Below are positions 1 through 9,190 of a stretch of DNA of 19,011 nt, piece by piece (the first letter of the stretch is position 1; every line of letters begins with the position of its first letter). The notes under the pieces are model-generated. The model saw nothing but the letters and a program-made list of their open reading frames with translations, made no database searches and was not told the DNA's origin. Origin of the DNA: Gemmatimonadota bacterium (GTDB taxonomy: Bacteria; Latescibacterota; UBA2968; UBA8231); NCBI GenBank assembly GCA_002712305.1, contig PATE01000092.1:28621-47631 (forward strand), in the 5' to 3' direction. The position numbers and the translations under genes are program-made.

Positions 1-857
1 CCCGTCAGCGCCTCCACAGCCGCTTTCTGTGACATCGACGAGGGATGGGAAATCGTCTGGCTCTGCGCCTTGTCCATCAGGCCGATCACATCGGCAGGCC
101 CGGCGGCATAGCCGATCCGCCAGCCCGTCATGGCGTACGTCTTGGATACGCCATTCACGATGATCGTGCGGGCCTTGAGTTCATCGTTGAGGGTAGCCAT
201 CGACACGTGGACGGCGTCATCGTAGATCAGCTTCTCGTAAATCTCGTCGCCGAGGACATACAGATCGTTCTCGAGCACAACCTCTCCGAGAGCGGCCATT
301 TCGTCGCGCGTATAAACGGCGCCGCTCGGATTCGACGGGCTGTTGATCAGCACCATCCTCGACCGTGGTGTGATAGCGGCCTTCAGCAACTGTGGGGTCA
401 ACTTCAACCCGTCCTCCGGGCGTGTCTCGACGACGACCGAATCACCACCGACCAGCTTGGGCTGCTCGGTGAAGGTCACCCAATACGGTGTGGGGATGAT
501 CAGTTCGTCCCCGGGGTTGAGCACGGCCGCCGAGGCCAGCGCCAGACAGTGCTTGGCGCCATTGTTGACCACCACCTCGTCCATGCCGTAGTCGAGGCCG
601 TGATCAAGTCGAAAGCGCTCGATCACCGCTTCCTTCAACTCGGGGATTCCTGAAGGGGGCGACGTGTACTTCGTGAAGCCCTCTTCAATGGCACGGATTC
701 CCGCGTCTTTGATGTTCTGAGGTGTATCGAAATCCGGTTCACCTGCCGACAGAGGGATCACATCGACCCCTTCCCGGCGCAGCGCCGCCGCCTTGGCCGT
801 GATCGCCATCGTTGGAGAGGGCGCAACGCGCTGAATGTATTCGGAAAGTGTGGCCAT
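1..857 (-). CDS. Class I (I-gamma) aspartate aminotransferase, C-terminus cut by window edge
   Basis: PLP-dependent transfer of an amino group between aspartate or a related amino acid and 2-oxoglutarate, in the cytoplasm. The frame runs open from the ATG at 857 to the left edge, giving about 285 of the roughly 395 residues usual for the family. The N-terminus MATLSEYIQRVAPSPTMAI and the segment LSAGEPDFDTP are typical of class I aminotransferases. INSPSNPSGA carries the conserved Asn that contacts PLP. GVSKTYAMTGWRIGYA carries the Schiff-base Lys and a conserved Arg, in the form typical of subgroup I-gamma (Thermus/Bacillus type). Its ATG overlaps the argJ stop as TGATG, so translation is probably coupled. 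As last gene visible in a Leu/Ile/Arg operon it may supply aspartate/glutamate exchange. Members of this subgroup can also be prephenate aminotransferases, so substrate is inferred. Confidence 0.93.
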   Translation of the reverse strand, partial: MATLSEYIQRVAPSPTMAITAKAAALRREGVDVIPLSAGEPDFDTPQNIKDAGIRAIEEGFTKYTSPPSGIPELKEAVIERFRLDHGLDYGMDEVVVNNGAKHCLALASAAVLNPGDELIIPTPYWVTFTEQPKLVGGDSVVVETRPEDGLKLTPQLLKAAITPRSRMVLINSPSNPSGAVYTRDEMAALGEVVLENDLYVLGDEIYEKLIYDDAVHVSMATLNDELKARTIIVNGVSKTYAMTGWRIGYAAGPADVIGLMDKAQSQTISHPSSMSQKAAVEALT

Positions 858-2068
858 CAGGTCGTGTACTCCGCGTTGAGTCGGACGTAGTCGTAAGTCA
901 GATCGCAGGTAAAGACCTCCGCCGTCGCCTGCCCCATGGCCAGGTCGATATCGATGGTGATCTCCTTTTCTTTCATGGCATTGCTCAGGACGCCAGCATC
1001 ATACGCCGCACCGGAACCGTCGGCGTAGATGGTTGTACCACACAGTGAGACCTCCACGTCACCCGGTTCGATGTCGACACCGGCATAACCCATGGCACAC
1101 AGAATCCGGCCCCAATTGGGATCATTGCCAAAGGACGCCGTCTTGACCAGACTGGAATTGGCCACGGACAGCCCCACCTGGCGTGCCTCGGCTTCGGTCC
1201 TGCCCCCTCGGACGAGAATCTGAATCAGTTTCGAGGCTCCCTCGCCATCGGCCGCCATCGCCCGGGCCAGGTGACGGCACACGTGGGCCATCGCCTCAAA
1301 CAGCGTCTGCGCTGCGCTCTCGTCCATCGGTGTGTCGACATCGCCAACACCGGCAGCGCCATTGGCCAGGGCGATCACCGTGTCGTTCGTACTCATGTCG
1401 CCGTCGACGGTGACGCAATTGAAGCTGCCCTCGACAGCTTTCACCAGTAGTTCTCGCAGCTGTGACGCGGGCAATGCAGCATCGGTGCCCACCACGGCGA
1501 GCATGGTGGCCATGTTTGGCGAGATCATGGCGGCTCCCTTGGCGACGCCACCGACATGTACCGTCTTGCCGTCGATCTCGATCTCCACAGCCAGATGTTT
1601 GGCCACCGTGTCCGTCGTCATCATCGCCTCGGCACAGTCGACACCTCCCGCTTCCGAAAGGCTCTCCACGAGGGTGGGTATGCCCGCTTCGATGACACCC
1701 ATCGGGAGAGGCTCACCAATGATCCCGGTGGAACAGACCAGGACATCTTCGGGTAGGAGATCGAGGGCTTCTGCACTAAGGCTGCACATCCGCTGAGCGT
1801 CGGCCTCACCCGGTGCCCCCGTGCAGGCGTTGGCATTGCCCGAATTGAGGATCACCGCCTGGGCCCGACCATCTTCAAGATGACGACGATCCACGGCGAT
1901 CGGTGCGGCCTGCACACGGTTGCGTGTGTAGACGGCGGCAGCAGATGCGGGACGGTCGCTGACGACGAGGGCCAGGTCTTTTGTTCCCGAATCCTTGATC
2001 CCACAAGCGATTCCCGCGGCCCGATAGCCGGCAGGTGTGGTGATACTCCCTGATTCCACTTCCCGCAT
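857..2068 (-). CDS. argJ: Bifunctional ornithine acetyltransferase / N-acetylglutamate synthase ArgJ
   Basis: ArgJ moves the acetyl group from N-acetylornithine to glutamate and, in bifunctional forms, also acetylates glutamate from acetyl-CoA, closing the acetyl cycle of arginine synthesis. The 403-residue product has the family's usual length. It carries the STGIIG oxyanion-hole motif near residues 113-118 and the self-cleavage motif KGAAMISPNMATMLAVV. There the chain is normally cut between Ala187 and Thr188, making Thr188 the new N-terminal nucleophile of the beta chain. The ATG at 2068 is chosen because AGGAG lies 8 nt upstream and MREVESGSITTPAGYRAAGI aligns with the family N-terminus; the frame stays open to 2185, but that extension lies inside cimA. 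Only 14 nt separate it from cimA. Placement among branched-chain genes rather than with argBCDF is unusual. Confidence 0.96.
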   Translation of the reverse strand: MREVESGSITTPAGYRAAGIACGIKDSGTKDLALVVSDRPASAAAVYTRNRVQAAPIAVDRRHLEDGRAQAVILNSGNANACTGAPGEADAQRMCSLSAEALDLLPEDVLVCSTGIIGEPLPMGVIEAGIPTLVESLSEAGGVDCAEAMMTTDTVAKHLAVEIEIDGKTVHVGGVAKGAAMISPNMATMLAVVGTDAALPASQLRELLVKAVEGSFNCVTVDGDMSTNDTVIALANGAAGVGDVDTPMDESAAQTLFEAMAHVCRHLARAMAADGEGASKLIQILVRGGRTEAEARQVGLSVANSSLVKTASFGNDPNWGRILCAMGYAGVDIEPGDVEVSLCGTTIYADGSGAAYDAGVLSNAMKEKEITIDIDLAMGQATAEVFTCDLTYDYVRLNAEYTT

Positions 2069-2082
2069 TGAGTCGCTCCTAC

Positions 2083-3720
2083 CTAGCTGCCGCTGGCGGC
2101 AGCCTGAATCGCTGCAGCGGGCTCTGCCTTGGCCATGACTTCCCGCATCAGTTTGTAGTGAAGACTGTCCGCAAGGGCGATCCAACTAGCTTCGATCACA
2201 TTCTCGGAGACACCCACCGTCCCCCACACGTCCTCCCCATCAGAAGATTCGATCAGCACCCGCACACGCGCCGCGGTTCCGTCGGCGCTGGACATGACGC
2301 GCACCTTGTAGTCTTCAAGATGGACCGTAGCGAGACTCGGATAGACGCCCTCCAGAGCCTTGCGCAAAGCCCGGTCGATGGCATTAACGGGCCCATCTCC
2401 TTCGGCGACGGTGTGCAGAATCTCGCCACCGACTTCGACTTTGACGATGGCCTGCGAGTCTTCGGACGCCGCCGTGTTTGGGGCCACAGGTCGGTCCTTG
2501 CGACTCTCGGTACGGTAGCTGACGGTGGTGAACATGTCTTCGTACAGACCCATCGCACGTCTGGCCAAGAGCTCAAAGGACCCTTCCGCCGCTTCGAACT
2601 GATACCCCTCGTGCTCGAGATGCTTCACCTCGTTGAGCACCTGGGCGACGATGGGGTCCTTCTTGTTCATGTCGGGGAAGAAGCGGCCGAGTTTCGCCAC
2701 CACCGTCCCACCACCCGACTGATCTGAAACCAGATAACGCCGCTCGTTGCCCGTCGCCTCGGGGTCTGCGTGCTCATAGCAGCGCGGATCCTTGGTCATG
2801 GCATCGATGTGGACGCCTCCCTTGTGGGCGTAGGCGCTCTCTCCCACGTAAGGTTGGCGGTGGTCGTGAGCGACGTTGGCGATCTCGCTCAGGAACCGGG
2901 AGAACACCATCAGATCACCCAGTTTCTCAGGACCGATCGTGCGCTTGCCCAACTTGAGTTCGAGTGTGGGGATCACTGTGCACAGATTGGCATTGCCGCA
3001 GCGTTCGCCATAGCCGTTGAACGTACCCTGCACCTGCGTGGCTCCGCCTTCGACAGCGGCCACCGAATTTGCGGCGCCCATGCCGGAGTCATTGTGTGCG
3101 TGGATTCCGATCGATGTGTCCCCTGCAGCGGCTTGTGCAGCCGCACAGATCGGCACCAACTCGCTCGGGATGGTCCCACCATTCGTGTCGCACAAGGCGA
3201 GAATCCGGGCGCCTCCCCGAACCGCTGCACGCAGCGTCTCGAGGGCATACTCGGCGTCGGCCTTGTAGCCGTCGAAAAAGTGTTCAGCGTCGTAGATGAC
3301 TTCGCGGCCTTCGGCAACGAGGTACCCCACAGAGTCTTCGATCAGTTCGAGATTCGTCTCACGTGTGGTCTTGAGCACCTCTGTGACGTGCAGATCCCAA
3401 CTCTTGCCGAACACCGCCACCGATTGCGTCTGTGCTTGGAGCAAGGTGCCGAGAGTTGCGTCGTCCTCCGGTGCATTGGTGGGCCGACGCGTGCTGCCAA
3501 AGGCCGTGACCCGCGCCGACAGCCCGAGTTCGCCCACGCGCTCGAAGAACGCCAGATCCTTGGGATTGGTCGGATTCGGCCAGCCGCCTTCGATGTAGTC
3601 GACACCGAGTTCATCGAGGCGCCTGGCGATCAGCAGCTTGTCCTCCAGGGAGTACGTAATGCCTTCCGCCTGCGCTCCGTCCCGTAGGGTCGAATCGTAG
3701 ATCTCAACGCGGTCAGACAT
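2083..3720 (-). CDS. cimA: (R)-citramalate synthase (CimA, LeuA-like)
   Basis: Condenses pyruvate and acetyl-CoA to citramalate, the first step of the threonine-independent route to 2-oxobutyrate and isoleucine. The 545-residue product has the DRE-TIM metallolyase fold. YDSTLRDGAQAEGI (catalytic Arg13, metal-binding Asp14) is the CimA form rather than the LeuA form. GGWPNPTNPKD near residue 45 is also CimA-like. HAH at 207-209 gives two metal ligands. Residues about 425-530 form the LeuA-type C-terminal regulatory dimer domain, which in this family usually binds isoleucine, so feedback inhibition is likely. The ATG at 3720 has AAAGGAG 7 nt upstream. The gene follows leuD after a 126-nt spacer with two hairpins. 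LeuCD encoded just upstream can carry out the next isomerisation. I rate CimA well above a second LeuA or homocitrate synthase. Confidence 0.94.
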   Translation of the reverse strand: MSDRVEIYDSTLRDGAQAEGITYSLEDKLLIARRLDELGVDYIEGGWPNPTNPKDLAFFERVGELGLSARVTAFGSTRRPTNAPEDDATLGTLLQAQTQSVAVFGKSWDLHVTEVLKTTRETNLELIEDSVGYLVAEGREVIYDAEHFFDGYKADAEYALETLRAAVRGGARILALCDTNGGTIPSELVPICAAAQAAAGDTSIGIHAHNDSGMGAANSVAAVEGGATQVQGTFNGYGERCGNANLCTVIPTLELKLGKRTIGPEKLGDLMVFSRFLSEIANVAHDHRQPYVGESAYAHKGGVHIDAMTKDPRCYEHADPEATGNERRYLVSDQSGGGTVVAKLGRFFPDMNKKDPIVAQVLNEVKHLEHEGYQFEAAEGSFELLARRAMGLYEDMFTTVSYRTESRKDRPVAPNTAASEDSQAIVKVEVGGEILHTVAEGDGPVNAIDRALRKALEGVYPSLATVHLEDYKVRVMSSADGTAARVRVLIESSDGEDVWGTVGVSENVIEASWIALADSLHYKLMREVMAKAEPAAAIQAAASGS

Positions 3721-3785
3721 GGCGTAGCTCCTTTACAGAGAATCGACATCGCTGCAAAACGATCTCGGCGAATCCAGTCGTCAGA

Positions 3786-3820
3786 AGACCGGAGAAAACG
3801 GTCTACTCGCCTGAGCGAGT
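3786..3820 (-). promoter_or_regulatory. Two tandem hairpins in the leuD-cimA spacer
   Basis: Two back-to-back perfect inverted repeats lie in the 126-nt leuD-cimA gap. ACTCGC/GCGAGT (3820-3815 with 3810-3805) has a 4-nt loop, and AGACCG/CGGTCT (3804-3799 with 3791-3786) has a 7-nt loop. No T-run follows either, so this is not a classic intrinsic terminator. Possible roles are mRNA processing or stabilisation, or tuning of cimA against leuD. The pairing is visible; the role is inferred. Confidence 0.45.
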
Positions 3821-3846
3821 GGACCCCAGATAGGACATGATGCAAG

Positions 3847-4437
3847 TCAGTACTTCAGATAGGGCAAACCATCGGCTGTGGTAGCGATCGCTTCACGATC
3901 GACAAGCAGTTGCCCCAGCGCATCCCAGCTGCCGTCGACGAATTGCTGCTGCAGTCCGTCCTCGATCTGGCCAGCGATGACCGTGCCGCCGAAACGGATC
4001 TCCTTCGCCGCCACATCGCAGGTCACGTCCTGCGTCGGATCGGCTTCGACGGCAGACTGCAGTTTCGTCACATCCTCTGGAGCCGCCGTCAGACAGGGCA
4101 ACCCCAGGGCGATGCAATTGCTGAAGAAGATCTCGGCAAAGGACTCACCGACGAAGGCATCGATCCCCCATCGCATGAGTGCCTGGGGTGCATGTTCGCG
4201 CGACGAGCCGCAGCCGAAATTCGCATTGGCCACAAGGATCGATGCGCCTTTGTAGTTCGTGTCATCGAAAGGATGGTCACCTCCGGCACGATCGTCTTCG
4301 AACACGTGCGTGCCAAGATCGTCAAAAGTCACCGTACGCAGATAACGCGCGGGGATGATTCGGTCCGTATCGATTTCGTCGCCGCGAATCGGAATGGCCC
4401 GACCAGCGATCTGGCGACGGATGGATTCGTTGTTCAT
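3847..4437 (-). CDS. leuD: 3-isopropylmalate dehydratase small subunit LeuD
   Basis: Small (swivel-domain) subunit of isopropylmalate isomerase, which with LeuC converts 2-isopropylmalate to 3-isopropylmalate; in CimA-containing bacteria the same enzyme usually also converts citramalate to beta-methylmalate. The 196-residue product has the expected length for LeuD. It shows GDEIDTDRIIPARYL near residues 19-33 and the signature NFGCGSSREHAPQAL near 72-86, which closes over the substrate. The ATG at 4437 lies 13 nt after the leuC stop and has an AGGAA element about 10 nt upstream. Order and spacing fit a coupled leuC-leuD pair whose products form a heterodimer. Confidence 0.97.
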   Translation of the reverse strand: MNNESIRRQIAGRAIPIRGDEIDTDRIIPARYLRTVTFDDLGTHVFEDDRAGGDHPFDDTNYKGASILVANANFGCGSSREHAPQALMRWGIDAFVGESFAEIFFSNCIALGLPCLTAAPEDVTKLQSAVEADPTQDVTCDVAAKEIRFGGTVIAGQIEDGLQQQFVDGSWDALGQLLVDREAIATTADGLPYLKY

Positions 4438-4450
4438 GTGAATGCTGTTC

Positions 4451-5836
4451 CTAGTTGAGGATCGAGCGCACGTCCGTCACCTCTCCGGTGACAGCGGCGG
4501 CGGCGACCATGGCGGGACTCATGAGCAGCGTGCGCCCCGTGGGGCTGCCCTGCCGACCCTTGAAATTGCGATTGCTCGAGGATGCACATAACTCGCGCCC
4601 TTGAAGCTTGTCGGGATTCATGGCCAGGCACATGGAACACCCGGGTTCACGCCAGTCGAAACCAGCGGCCTTGAAGATCTCGTCCAACCCCTCAGACCGC
4701 GCCTGATCTCTCACTTCGTGAGACCCGGGAACCACGAGGGCACGCACGCCAGAGGTGACCTTGCGTCCCTCTGCGACGCGGGCCGCTTCGCGCAGATCTG
4801 AAATGCGTGAATTGGTGCAGGAACCGATAAAGGCCACATCCACCTTGGTGCCGGCGATCGGTTGATCCGATTCAAACCCCATGAAATCCATGGCCTCCGC
4901 CGTTCCCGCACCATCAGCTGCGGGAAGATGCTCGTCGATCGCACACGACTGACCGGGATTGATCCCCCATGTGACCGTGGGCTTGATCGACGCTGCATCG
5001 AGGGTCACCTCGTCGTCGAACGTAGAGTCGGCCTCTGACCTCATCGAGTTCCACCACGCCACGGCCTCGTCGAAAACCGCGTCCTTCGGTGCGTGAACCC
5101 GGCCCTGCAGATACTCGTAGGTCGTCTGGTCAGGATTGATATACCCACAGCGGGCACCACCCTCAATAGACATGTTGCACACCGTCATGCGCGCTTCCAT
5201 GTCCATCTCTTCGATCGCTGAACCTGCGAACTCATAGGCGAACCCCACCCCGCCGTTGACGCCCAGGCGATTGATAATGGTGAGGATCACGTCTTTTGCG
5301 TACACCCCTTCGTTCAGCTTGCCGTCAACTTCGACACGACGAACCTTGGGCCGCGCCAGAGCCAGACACTGAGAGGCAAGCACGTCCCGCACCTGGCTGG
5401 TGCCAATCCCGAAGGCGATGGCACCGAAAGCCCCGTGGGTCGAAGTATGACTGTCGCCACAGGCGATGGTCATGCCCGGTTGAGTCAGCCCGAGTTCGGG
5501 GCCGATGACATGAACCACGCCCTGGCGCCGATCATCCATGCCGTAGAGGGGCAGCTCGAATTCGGCCGTATTGCGCTCGATGGCGACCATCATCTCCTCG
5601 GCGAGTTCGTCGAGAAAGGGTCGCTCACGGACGTCAGTCGGCACGATGTGATCGACCGTCGCATAGGTCCGTTCCGGATGCAGCACCTTGAGCCCCCGTT
5701 CGCGCAACATCTGGAAGGCCTGAGGACTGGTCACCTCATGCACAAGGTGCAGACCAACAAACAGTTGACTTTGTCCCGAGGGGAGTTCCCTCACCGTGTG
5801 GTTTGCCCACACCTTCTCAAACAGATTCTTGCTCAC
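4451..5836 (-). CDS. leuC: 3-isopropylmalate dehydratase large subunit LeuC
   Basis: Large, [4Fe-4S]-bearing subunit of isopropylmalate isomerase (aconitase family). The three cluster cysteines are visible at about Cys340 (GSCTNSR) and Cys400/Cys403 ([11 protein letters not shown]). [12 protein letters not shown] near the N-terminus and [21 protein letters not shown] are family hallmarks. I set the start at the GTG at 5836. It gives [10 protein letters not shown], which aligns with the usual LeuC N-terminus, it has GAGGAAAG with 8-nt spacing, and it yields 461 residues, close to the E. coli length. A TTG at 5881 would add 15 unrelated residues. The gene lies between leuA (45-nt gap) and leuD (13-nt gap) and partners with LeuD. 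Confidence 0.97.
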
Positions 5837-5881
5837 TTTTCTTTCCTCACTCGTTGCTCTTCTGTCAGACGGTCTTGGCAA

Positions 5882-7444
5882 TTACACAGTCTGGTCCTGA
5901 ACCTGGTCGCTTCGCACCTGGCGGCCGCGACGCAGATACAGGCGATTCAGGGCATCCACATAGGCTCGAGCGCTGGCTTCGATGATGTCCGTCGAAACAC
6001 CGCGGCCTGTTGTTTTCAGTTCGCCATCATTCACTCGCACTGTGACTTCACCCATCGCCTGACTTCCACCGGTGATCGCCTGGATGACGTATTCCTCCAC
6101 CGTGGGGCGTTGTCCCGCAGCGAGGTTGATCGCCTCATAGGACGCGTCCACGGGACCATCTCCCCACGCCGATTGCTGGACGCTCTCAGCGCCCTCGATG
6201 TGCAGACGCACTGTGGCAGAGGGAACGGTGCCACTCCCGCTGATCGTGTGCAGGTACTCGAGTTTGAATTTCTCGTTCCCTTCGACACGGATTTCATCGC
6301 CCACGATGGCCATCAGATCTTCGTCGAAGACTTCCTTCTTCTTGTCCGCCAATTCGATGAAACGATCGTAGGCCTTCTCGAGCTCGTCTTTGCTCAGATC
6401 GTAACCCAACTCTTCGAGCCTGTGGCGCAGGGCGTGGCGACCACTGCGAGCGGTGAGCACGATCGACGTCGCCTCCCAGCCTACATCGGTGGGCTCCATG
6501 ATCTCGAACGTGTTGCGCGCCTTCAGAACGCCATCCTGGTGGATGCCGGAGCTATGCGCGAACGCGTTGGCACCGACGATTGCCTTGTTCGGCGCCACGA
6601 CGATCCCCATCATGCGACTCACCAGACGACTCGTAGAGACGATCTCTTTGGAGACGATATCTGTATCGAGCCCGTAGTAGTCGGTCCTCGTCCGCAAAGC
6701 CATGACAACCTCTTCGAGGGACGCATTTCCCGCTCGTTCGCCCAGGCCATTCAGGGTACACTCCACCTGGCGCGCCCCTGCCCTGAGGGCGGACAGTGTA
6801 TTCGATACGGCCATGCCCAGATCGTCGTGGCAGTGAACACTGATCACCGCCTTGTCCATGTTGGGCACATTCTGCGTCAGATGCGTGATCAACTCGGCAA
6901 ACTGCTCGGGCACGGTGAAACCCACCGTGTCGGGAATGTTGATCGTCGTCGCCCCCGCCTCGATCGTGGCCTGCACAATGTCGCACAGGTAGTCCAGATC
7001 GGTCCTCGTTGCATCCATGGGCGAGAATTCGACGTCGTCCACGGCACTCTTGGCATGGGCCACGGCCTTGATCGCCATCTCGAGCACTTCGGCCTTACCC
7101 TTGCGCAACTGACCGTCCAGTTGGACCTGTGAAGTGCCTACGAAGGTGTGAATTCGCGGTTTGGCCGCTCCATCGAGGGCCTCGGCGGCGCGATCGATGT
7201 CCTTGAGCACCACCCTCGCCAACCCACAGATCATCGGCCCTTCGATCTCGTGGGCGATCCGGTGAACGGCCTCGAAGTCTTCGTTGGAGGAAATCGGAAA
7301 GCCCGCTTCGATGACATCAACCTGGAGACGTGCCAGTTGTTTGGCGATCTCCATCTTGTCGGGCACGGTCAGTGACGCCCCCGGTGTCTGCTCCGCATCG
7401 CGCAGGGTCGTGTCGAAGATGATGACTTTGTCGGTTGTAGCCAT
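5882..7444 (-). CDS. leuA: 2-isopropylmalate synthase LeuA
   Basis: Condenses 2-ketoisovalerate and acetyl-CoA to 2-isopropylmalate, the committed step of leucine synthesis. The 520-residue product has the two-part LeuA structure. The N-terminal DRE-TIM barrel carries [16 protein letters not shown] (Arg15, Asp16) and HCHDD (His204, His206 as metal ligands). The C-terminal regulatory domain, about residues 395-510, normally binds leucine for feedback inhibition. The ATG at 7444 is preceded by GGAG at 10-nt spacing and gives the family N-terminus [11 protein letters not shown]. The frame stays open to 7498, but those residues do not align. A 245-nt structured spacer separates it from ilvC, suggesting its own control. 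It is a diverged paralogue of the cimA product in the same operon. Confidence 0.97.
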
Positions 7445-7514
7445 GGTGCTTCTACTCCGTCTGAGGCCGGCAAGAATGGGGACGAGAGCTGATCCCACGT
7501 CGGGACGGGTCTCG

Positions 7515-7689: not shown

Positions 7690-8679
7690 TTACTTACCCA
7701 ACCAGGACATCATGCCGCGCAGTCGACCACCGACTTCCTCGATCAGGTGCTCGGAATCGCGACGCTTCTGCGCGTTGTAGTTGGGCCGGCCTACCTGATT
7801 CTCCAGCATCCACTCTTTGGCAAACTTTCCGGTCTGCACGTCGGACAGAATTCGCTTCATTTCGGCGCGTGTCTCTTCCGTCACCACGCGACGACCACGA
7901 GACAGATCGCCGAATTCAGCTGTATCCGAGATCGACGACCGCATGTTGGCGATGCCGCCTTCGTAGATCAGGTCGACGATCAGCTTCACCTCGTGGAGAC
8001 ATTCGAAATACGCCACTTCGGGCTGATACCCCGCCTCTACGAGGGTGTCAAAACCGGCCCGGATCAACTCTGTGAGCCCACCACACAACACGACCTGCTC
8101 ACCGAACAGATCCGTCTCGGTCTCTTCACGGAAGGTCGTCTGAATCACGCCACCACGAGTGCAGCCGATGCCGCGGGCATAGGCCAGACCGATGTCGTGG
8201 GCACGACCACTGGCATCCTGCTCGACGGCAAGCAGACCGGGAACACCACCACCCTCGCTGTAGACCCGTCGCACCAGATGGCCGGGGCCCTTGGGTGCCA
8301 CCATGAACACATCCACATCCGCCGGCGGCACAACCTGACCGAAATGGATGTTAAATCCGTGGGCGAAGGCCAGCGCATTGCCGGCGGTGAGATTCGGCTT
8401 GATGTCCGCTTCGTACACCTGGCCCTGGATCTCGTCGTTGATGAGGATCATGATGATGTCCCCCATCTTGGATGCCTCGGCAACAGACGCAACCTTGAGC
8501 CCTTCTTTCTCCGCCTCTGCACGCCGAGCACTGCCCTCACGAAGACCGACGACGACATTGACGCCACTCTCCTTCAGGTTGAGGGAGTGGGCGTGCCCCT
8601 GACTGCCGTAGCCGATGACGGCGACGGTCTTGTCGGCAAGCAATTCGAGGTTGGCATCGTCATCGTAGTACATCTTCAT
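7690..8679 (-). CDS. ilvC: Class I ketol-acid reductoisomerase IlvC
   Basis: NADPH- and Mg-dependent isomerisation and reduction of acetolactate or acetohydroxybutyrate, shared by the valine, leucine and isoleucine pathways. The 329-residue product has the short class I length. It has the Rossmann motif [19 protein letters not shown] near residues 21-39, the [14 protein letters not shown] stretch, and the knotted C-terminal domain with DLFGEQ (metal ligands) and the HEVKLIVDL helix. Three in-frame ATGs lie close together (8685, 8679, 8673). The AAAAGGAG element ends 1 nt before the first but 7 nt before the second, so I choose 8679. It is the first enzyme gene of the operon, about 480 nt downstream of a strong promoter and 190 nt after an Ile/Leu-rich leader ORF. 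ilvB and ilvN are not adjacent. Confidence 0.97.
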
Positions 8680-8697
8680 GGTCATTCTCCTTTTGCG

Positions 8698-8733
8698 GGT
8701 CGAGGGTTCATCAAGTGGTCTCGACCATCGGTC
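8698..8733 (-). promoter_or_regulatory. Mutually exclusive hairpins just upstream of the ilvC ribosome site
   Basis: GGTCGAG (8726-8720) pairs perfectly with CTCGACC (8704-8698), 7 bp with a 15-nt loop, and ends 4 nt before the AAAAGGAG site of ilvC. The same GGTC (8726-8723) can instead pair with GACC (8733-8730) around a 3-nt loop. A further 6-bp hairpin, GCGGCC/GGCCGC (8753-8748 with 8743-8738), lies just upstream. Alternative pairings next to a ribosome site suggest a translational or attenuation switch. The pairings are seen; the function is inferred. Confidence 0.45.
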
Positions 8734-8823
8734 TTGGGCGGCCAACAGGCCGCGGCCGGTTCATTGTGGATGCGCGAGGTCAGCGCCGGGCATAGCTTTA
8801 TGACTGCCTTTGAGTGCTCTCAG

Positions 8824-8871
8824 AGGCTCCGTCCGTCTTCGTTGTGATATTTAGAAGGTGCGGAGGAGCCT
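8824..8871 (-). promoter_or_regulatory. Long hairpin overlapping the leader-peptide stop codon
   Basis: AGGCTCC (8871-8865) plus TCCG (8864-8861) pairs with CGGA (8835-8832) and GGAGCCT (8830-8824), with one bulged base at 8831 and a 25-nt loop. The 5' arm begins at the TAG stop (8872-8870) of the Ile/Leu-rich ORF. A ribosome finishing the peptide would cover this arm, while one stalled on the Ile/Leu codons upstream would leave it free. No U-run follows, so any attenuation would be Rho-dependent or translational. Confidence 0.5.
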
Positions 8872-8971
8872 ACTCGAGTCCGATAATGACAAGCCCGATA
8901 AGAAGAATCGACCCGAGAAGAATCGAATCCGGAATCAGGCGATCGAGTGAGAAGACCGAACGGCGACTCAG
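8870..8971 (-). CDS. Candidate branched-chain leader peptide (Ile/Leu-rich)
   Basis: In the leader of the ilvC operon this frame ends in a run where 14 of 22 residues are branched-chain (7 Leu, 6 Ile, 1 Val), including SILLGSILLIGLVIIGLE and then TAG. This composition resembles enterobacterial ilv leader peptides, and the operon makes just these amino acids. The start is uncertain. The frame has no ATG after the promoter. A CTG at 8971 has GGAG 8 nt upstream and overlaps the TGA of an upstream 60-codon frame (ATG at 9150). A GTG at 9013 has GAGGA but almost no spacing. Two copies of an 11-bp repeat 15 bp apart encode SILLG/SILLI. Alternatives are a one-helix membrane micro-protein or chance. 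Confidence 0.5.
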   Translation of the reverse strand: MSRRSVFSLDRLIPDSILLGSILLIGLVIIGLE

Positions 8972-9161
8972 ACGCAGCGCTCCAACGACACCACGGGCGT
9001 CAGATGGAAACACTTCCTCGACGCGGGCGTCATGGGAAGTGCGTGCGTATACGGAGATGTGTGAAATAGTGGCCACCGTTTGGCAGGGAAACACAGTGCA
9101 ACAAGCAGGCTCGAAACACAAGGGGTACAGGGACTTACACCTGTGTCCATCAAGGCGGAGA

Positions 9162-9190
9162 AATATAGCGGGGCCCCTGAAGCATGTCAA
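9162..9190 (-). promoter_or_regulatory. Strong sigma70-type promoter of the ilvC-leu-cimA-argJ operon
   Basis: On the minus strand TTGACA (9190-9185, perfect -35) is followed after exactly 17 nt by TATATT (9167-9162, 5 of 6 to the -10 consensus). The spacer holds an 8-bp palindrome GGGGCCCC. The expected start site is near 9155, giving a leader of about 470 nt before ilvC. It faces the operon and lies in the gap to the divergent acyltransferase gene. Confidence 0.78.

Follow-up and report, generated by a model that had tools for sequence, protein, structure and literature searches.

Organization of the Locus

The window (the whole stretch of 19,011 nt that was analysed) carries on its minus strand six genes in the order ilvC-leuA-leuC-leuD-cimA-argJ, assigned through Pfam, together with a promoter, a leader open reading frame (ORF) and two overlapping RNA helices upstream of ilvC. 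The features, in the direction of transcription, are as follows.

9162–9190, minus strand: promoter, TTGACA (9190–9185), 17-nt spacer and TATATT (9167–9162), from the sequence
8870–9076, minus strand: leader ORF of 68 codons, with a GTG start at 9076 (common to the same-genus relative G001) and a TAG stop at 8872–8870
8873–8938, minus strand: control region, from codon counts, 22 codons with 7 Leu, 6 Ile and 1 Val, many of them the rare CTT and ATT
8824–8871, minus strand: helix A (antiterminator-like), 8871–8861 with 8835–8824, 11 bp, C8831 bulged, G-poor loop, from covariation
8806–8827, minus strand: helix B (terminator-like), 8827–8819 with 8814–8806, C8823/A8810 mismatch, loop AGCA, from covariation
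8791–8805, minus strand: conserved tail AGTCATAAAGCT-ATG, its NTG starting exactly 12 nt past the base of helix B
8687–8690, minus strand: Shine-Dalgarno sequence GGAG of ilvC, from the sequence, about 115 nt from helix B
7690–8679, minus strand: ilvC, ketol-acid reductoisomerase (Pfam KARI_N and KARI_C), first gene of the regulated operon
857–7498, minus strand: the genes downstream of ilvC, leuA to argJ together (Pfam)
5882–7498, minus strand: leuA (Pfam)
4451–5881, minus strand: leuC (Pfam)
3847–4437, minus strand: leuD (Pfam)
2083–3720, minus strand: cimA (Pfam)
857–2185, minus strand: argJ (Pfam)

The listed TTG start of argJ overlaps cimA by about 100 nt (2083–2185), so the true argJ start probably lies further downstream. 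Between the leader element and ilvC, at 8753–8738, there is a GC hairpin (GCGGCC-TGTT-GGCCGC); at that place, the same-genus relative carries another GC hairpin, and neither one is followed by U's.

Occurrence of the Element in Relatives

We compared the sequence ahead of ilvC between the window's genome and those of 22 relatives. In nearly all of them, the promoter and both helices recurred, as did the leader ORF, which has Leu/Ile codons just before its stop and ends at the foot of helix A. With a covariance model (R1), matches were obtained in 31 of 64 genomes from the phylum; one of these matches (L138, in G039) falls within an open reading frame and is a chance match, and the weak matches L173–L177 were also attributed to chance. 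A rebuilt model (R2) added further members and, once matches inside genes had been dropped, 37 members, in families f1, f2 and f3 of one class, were retained for analysis.

In f1, the element precedes ilvC, or leuA in the case of G003; in f2 and f3, it precedes ilvN, followed by leuA or ilvC. The downstream genes (ilvC, ilvN or leuA) are thus those of branched-chain amino acid (BCAA) biosynthesis, as expected for an attenuator. The G003 copy (L139:1501–1588), placed before leuA and not ilvC, occurs in a genome that encodes, on the same contig, a divergent KARI (L024; 37% identity).

A near-consensus promoter had been noticed in the window's sequence beforehand, and it proved to be conserved in f1: a near-identical promoter (TTGACA or TTGACT, N17, and TATATT or one mismatch to it) stands ahead of nearly all f1 leaders, at 143–291 nt from the leader stop.

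The window's genome contains a single copy of the element, and no similar attenuator was seen before hisG. A search of 80 ilvC loci of other phyla with the model gave nothing convincing, and in the open-access literature we found no description of the element. The long structured 5' leader ahead of BCAA genes might suggest direct sensing of a ligand or tRNA by a riboswitch or a T-box. However, Rfam returned no match, even at E values up to 5, and conservation is confined to two helices beside the ORF stop, which makes direct reading of this kind scarcely credible. As judged from the genome comparison, the finding is confirmed as real, namely a conserved predicted switch of textbook type in an uncultured phylum.

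The Leader ORF and Its Codons

The leader ORF measures some 30–70 codons among the members. No in-frame ATG occurs in the window's leader frame, where GTG 9076 is the only conserved in-frame start shared with G001 (VATISHI.../VANISYV...). The non-ATG start described in the sequence-only reading is therefore valid as a trait of the window's genus (G000 and G001), but it does not extend to most other genera, where an ATG starts the ORF at the same place.

That reading had also counted 14 Ile, Leu and Val residues in the final 22 codons, and the recount gave the same numbers. When one sequence per genus was considered (12 genera), the share of Ile, Leu and Val in the last 16 codons was 0.62 in frame, whereas the two alternative frames gave 0.04 and 0.17. 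Codon counts over all members, in which sequences from within a genus are not independent, revealed that ATT accounts for 77% of leader Ile codons (27% of Ile codons in genes) and CTT for 29% of leader Leu codons (6% in genes). Codons for the regulated amino acids are accordingly found near the leader stop, as in an attenuator.

The hydrophobic C-terminal segments of the leader peptides, present in all members, could also be taken to mean that the ORF encodes a small membrane protein, the hairpins being incidental. We disfavour this explanation as highly improbable. Beyond its richness in Ile, Leu and Val, the peptide showed no conservation as a protein or as a membrane helix; it had no Pfam match, and substitution counts by codon position were flat, indicating no strong coding constraint. 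Moreover, the hairpins show covariation and a fixed geometry next to the stop codon. The situation in which the Ile/Leu run is kept only as a membrane helix, named beforehand as contrary to attenuation, was not seen.

Two Mutually Exclusive Helices

The hairpin of 11 bp with one bulge that the sequence-only reading had drawn next to the stop codon is correct, and it is conserved as helix A, with the leader stop TAG inside its 5' arm. In the core of helix A, 100% of the alignment cells were paired over 17 sequences and 99.4% over 28, with UA/CG, CG/UA and CG/AU exchanges. Helix B, GCCTCTGAG-AGCA-CTCAAAGGC, lies directly 3' of helix A and overlaps it. Its cells were 92.5% paired and, as in helix A, compensatory changes have altered both sides. 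The real hairpin B was more stable than its own shuffles in all 37 members. Over the 28-sequence alignment, 95.6% of the cells pair, versus 87.1% upon shuffling and 30–49% upon sliding, a figure that leans towards structure because the alignment was fitted to the covariance model.

The stretch GCCT (8827–8824) is common to the two helices, which are therefore mutually exclusive. Mutually exclusive hairpins had been anticipated, albeit at 8698–8733, near the ilvC ribosome site. Their existence is borne out by helix B, which overlaps helix A and had been missed, but their location is not: the hairpins at 8698–8733 (GACCgatGGTC; GGTCGAG...CTCGACC) can be drawn in the window, yet they are absent in the same-genus G001 (L002). 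A third helix, between the 3' arm of helix B and the tail, was rejected on inspection by eye, as its pairs fail across genera.

We then modeled the folding of the 37 sequences in the presence of a ribosome that covers the RNA up to 9 nt beyond its A-site codon, the readout being how probable it was, on average, for the shared GCC to pair upstream (A) or downstream (B). The A/B values were 0.83/0.15 for the free RNA; they became 0.03/0.85 once the ribosome stood at the stop, and 0.77/0.19 when it was stalled on the last Leu/Ile pair. When the downstream part was shuffled, B dropped to 0.49. In three members (L121, L130 and L135), helix B was still favoured in the stalled state.

This predicted A-to-B flip is the classical attenuation geometry, and covariation and folding together point to two mutually exclusive helices, the first of which would be covered by a ribosome standing at the stop, as in an attenuator.

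Proposed Mechanism

We consider it likely that the element is a ribosome-mediated attenuator for BCAA, placed ahead of the ilvC operon. The ORF, its codon bias, the spacing and both helices are supported by comparison of the sequences, while the A/B switch is shown in the folding model. The frame, the Ile/Leu codon run and the compensatory base pairs, whose conservation in relatives had been suggested as a check, all turned out to be conserved, which supports the ilv-type attenuation logic originally proposed from the window. What speaks against it is the missing U-tract after helix B in nearly all members, in a family with canonical U-tract terminators elsewhere, the preference for helix B under stalling in L121, L130 and L135, and the flat substitution counts by codon position.

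RNA polymerase would start at the promoter and a ribosome would translate the leader ORF. When charged Leu- or Ile-tRNA is scarce, the ribosome would stall on the CTT and ATT codons, about 3–6 codons before the stop and short of helix A, so that helix A would form, helix B would be blocked and the operon would be expressed. When charged tRNA is ample, the ribosome would reach the TAG and cover the 5' arm of helix A, allowing helix B to form and reducing expression. The signal would thus be tRNA charging, and helix B would most likely lower expression by ending or pausing transcription.

The Output Step

As noted beforehand, the window has no U-run terminator. The U-tract of a Rho-independent terminator was absent directly after helix B in 36 of the 37 members, the window's included. 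The sole exception is L134 (G034; L134:1501–1581, before ilvN-ilvC), which has the same architecture with a U8 after helix B; judging by its sequence, this combination is an ordinary intrinsic terminator. In the window, the conserved tail occupies the position of the U8, and most other members likewise have there a tail with an NTG, about 12 nt past helix B. Most f1 genera have T(A/G/T)TG there, the NTG lying exactly 12 nt beyond helix B while the sequence between varies; the variable letter is only A, G or T, and genera g8, g15 and g16 have GTA or ATA instead.

A Rho-dependent or translational output had been suggested beforehand. Tentatively, the ribosome-controlled hairpin may not be an intrinsic terminator but act via the site 12 nt downstream, through either a hairpin-dependent pause with factor-dependent release or the start of a second mini-ORF.

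The first of these options retains the same A/B switch with a Rho- or pause-dependent output: helix B would stabilise a polymerase paused about 12–14 nt downstream, at the conserved position, and Rho or NusG-type factors would release it. The general lack of a U-tract, in a family that does have U-tract terminators at some gene ends at least (few in G018), is consistent with this, as are the exact 12-nt spacing despite the variable intervening sequence, the presence of a rho gene, and the G-poor loop of helix A (9% G, 36% C). However, the excess of C over G here is mild, near the 70th percentile of the window, and a Rho loading site was not accepted on that basis. Furthermore, the tail, compared by eye, departs from the pause consensus of E. 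coli, which has a G at −10. On balance, we regard a Rho- or pause-dependent output as conceivable but somewhat doubtful.

In the other option, translational attenuation, the NTG past helix B would open a second mini-ORF, often ending at the Shine-Dalgarno sequence of the structural gene; helix B would gate access to it, and re-initiation would set ilvC translation. The restriction of the variable letter to A, G or T fits such a start, and re-initiation at leader genes has been proposed (PMC4833913). Out of 20 representatives, 12 have an NTG frame that ends between −20 and +25 nt relative to the start of the structural gene; for the other two frames the figures are 7 and 5, but this excess is small and phylogenetically dependent. 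In the window, the NTG frame reaches its stop 81 nt short of ilvC; in g4, it ends after two codons. Nor did we find a switch helix sequestering the ilvC ribosome site, helix B lying about 115 nt before the ilvC Shine-Dalgarno sequence; among relatives, the leader stop is 114 to 318 nt from the gene. Translational attenuation therefore appears unlikely.

Comparison with Known Attenuators

The ribosome-mediated attenuator proposed here resembles the classical enterobacterial ilv, leu and trp transcription attenuators (ilvGMEDA, ilvBN and leuABCD) in having a leader with rare codons for the regulated amino acids, mutually exclusive helices, and a stop codon whose ribosome masks the antiterminator arm. 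It differs from them in the lack of a U-tract after the terminator-like helix in all members but L134, in the length of the leader ORF and its GTG start in the window's genus, and in the operon, ilvC-leuACD-cimA-argJ.

In Corynebacterium, attenuation of ilvBNC through a BCAA-rich uORF is known (PMC10272879), and the ilvB-II motif/ilvBNC attenuator (PMC10272879, PMC11857589) shares with our element such a uORF and alternative hairpins; however, lineage, target gene, sequence and structure all differ. Attenuation through a uORF is suspected for two further motifs, ilvB-OMG and Leptospira ilvB (PMC10272879). These motifs also combine a variable BCAA-rich uORF with a structured RNA before an ilv gene, the mechanism being deduced from sequence; the difference noted here is that our element has no Rfam match.

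Concerning the output step, actinobacterial ilvB leaders have candidate terminators followed by U-runs, whereas the mycobacterial cys leaders have no terminators, and Rho has been suggested (PMC1262725). The cys leader peptides are similar to our case in being amino-acid-specific and devoid of an obvious intrinsic terminator, but they lack conserved hairpins, whereas the element described here has two conserved competing helices.

Implications

The principle is an ordinary one and well supported, namely that ribosome speed on a leader ORF can, as modeled here, set the output of amino-acid enzymes; what is unusual is an output step without a U-tract. The element adds an uncultured phylum to the range of leader-peptide attenuation, on evidence at the level of covariation. 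It also provides a natural series, in which one genus has the U8 and its relatives do not, that bears on the action of an attenuator hairpin lacking a U-tract, and its covariance model offers a search tool for BCAA regulons in genomes that lack cultured members.
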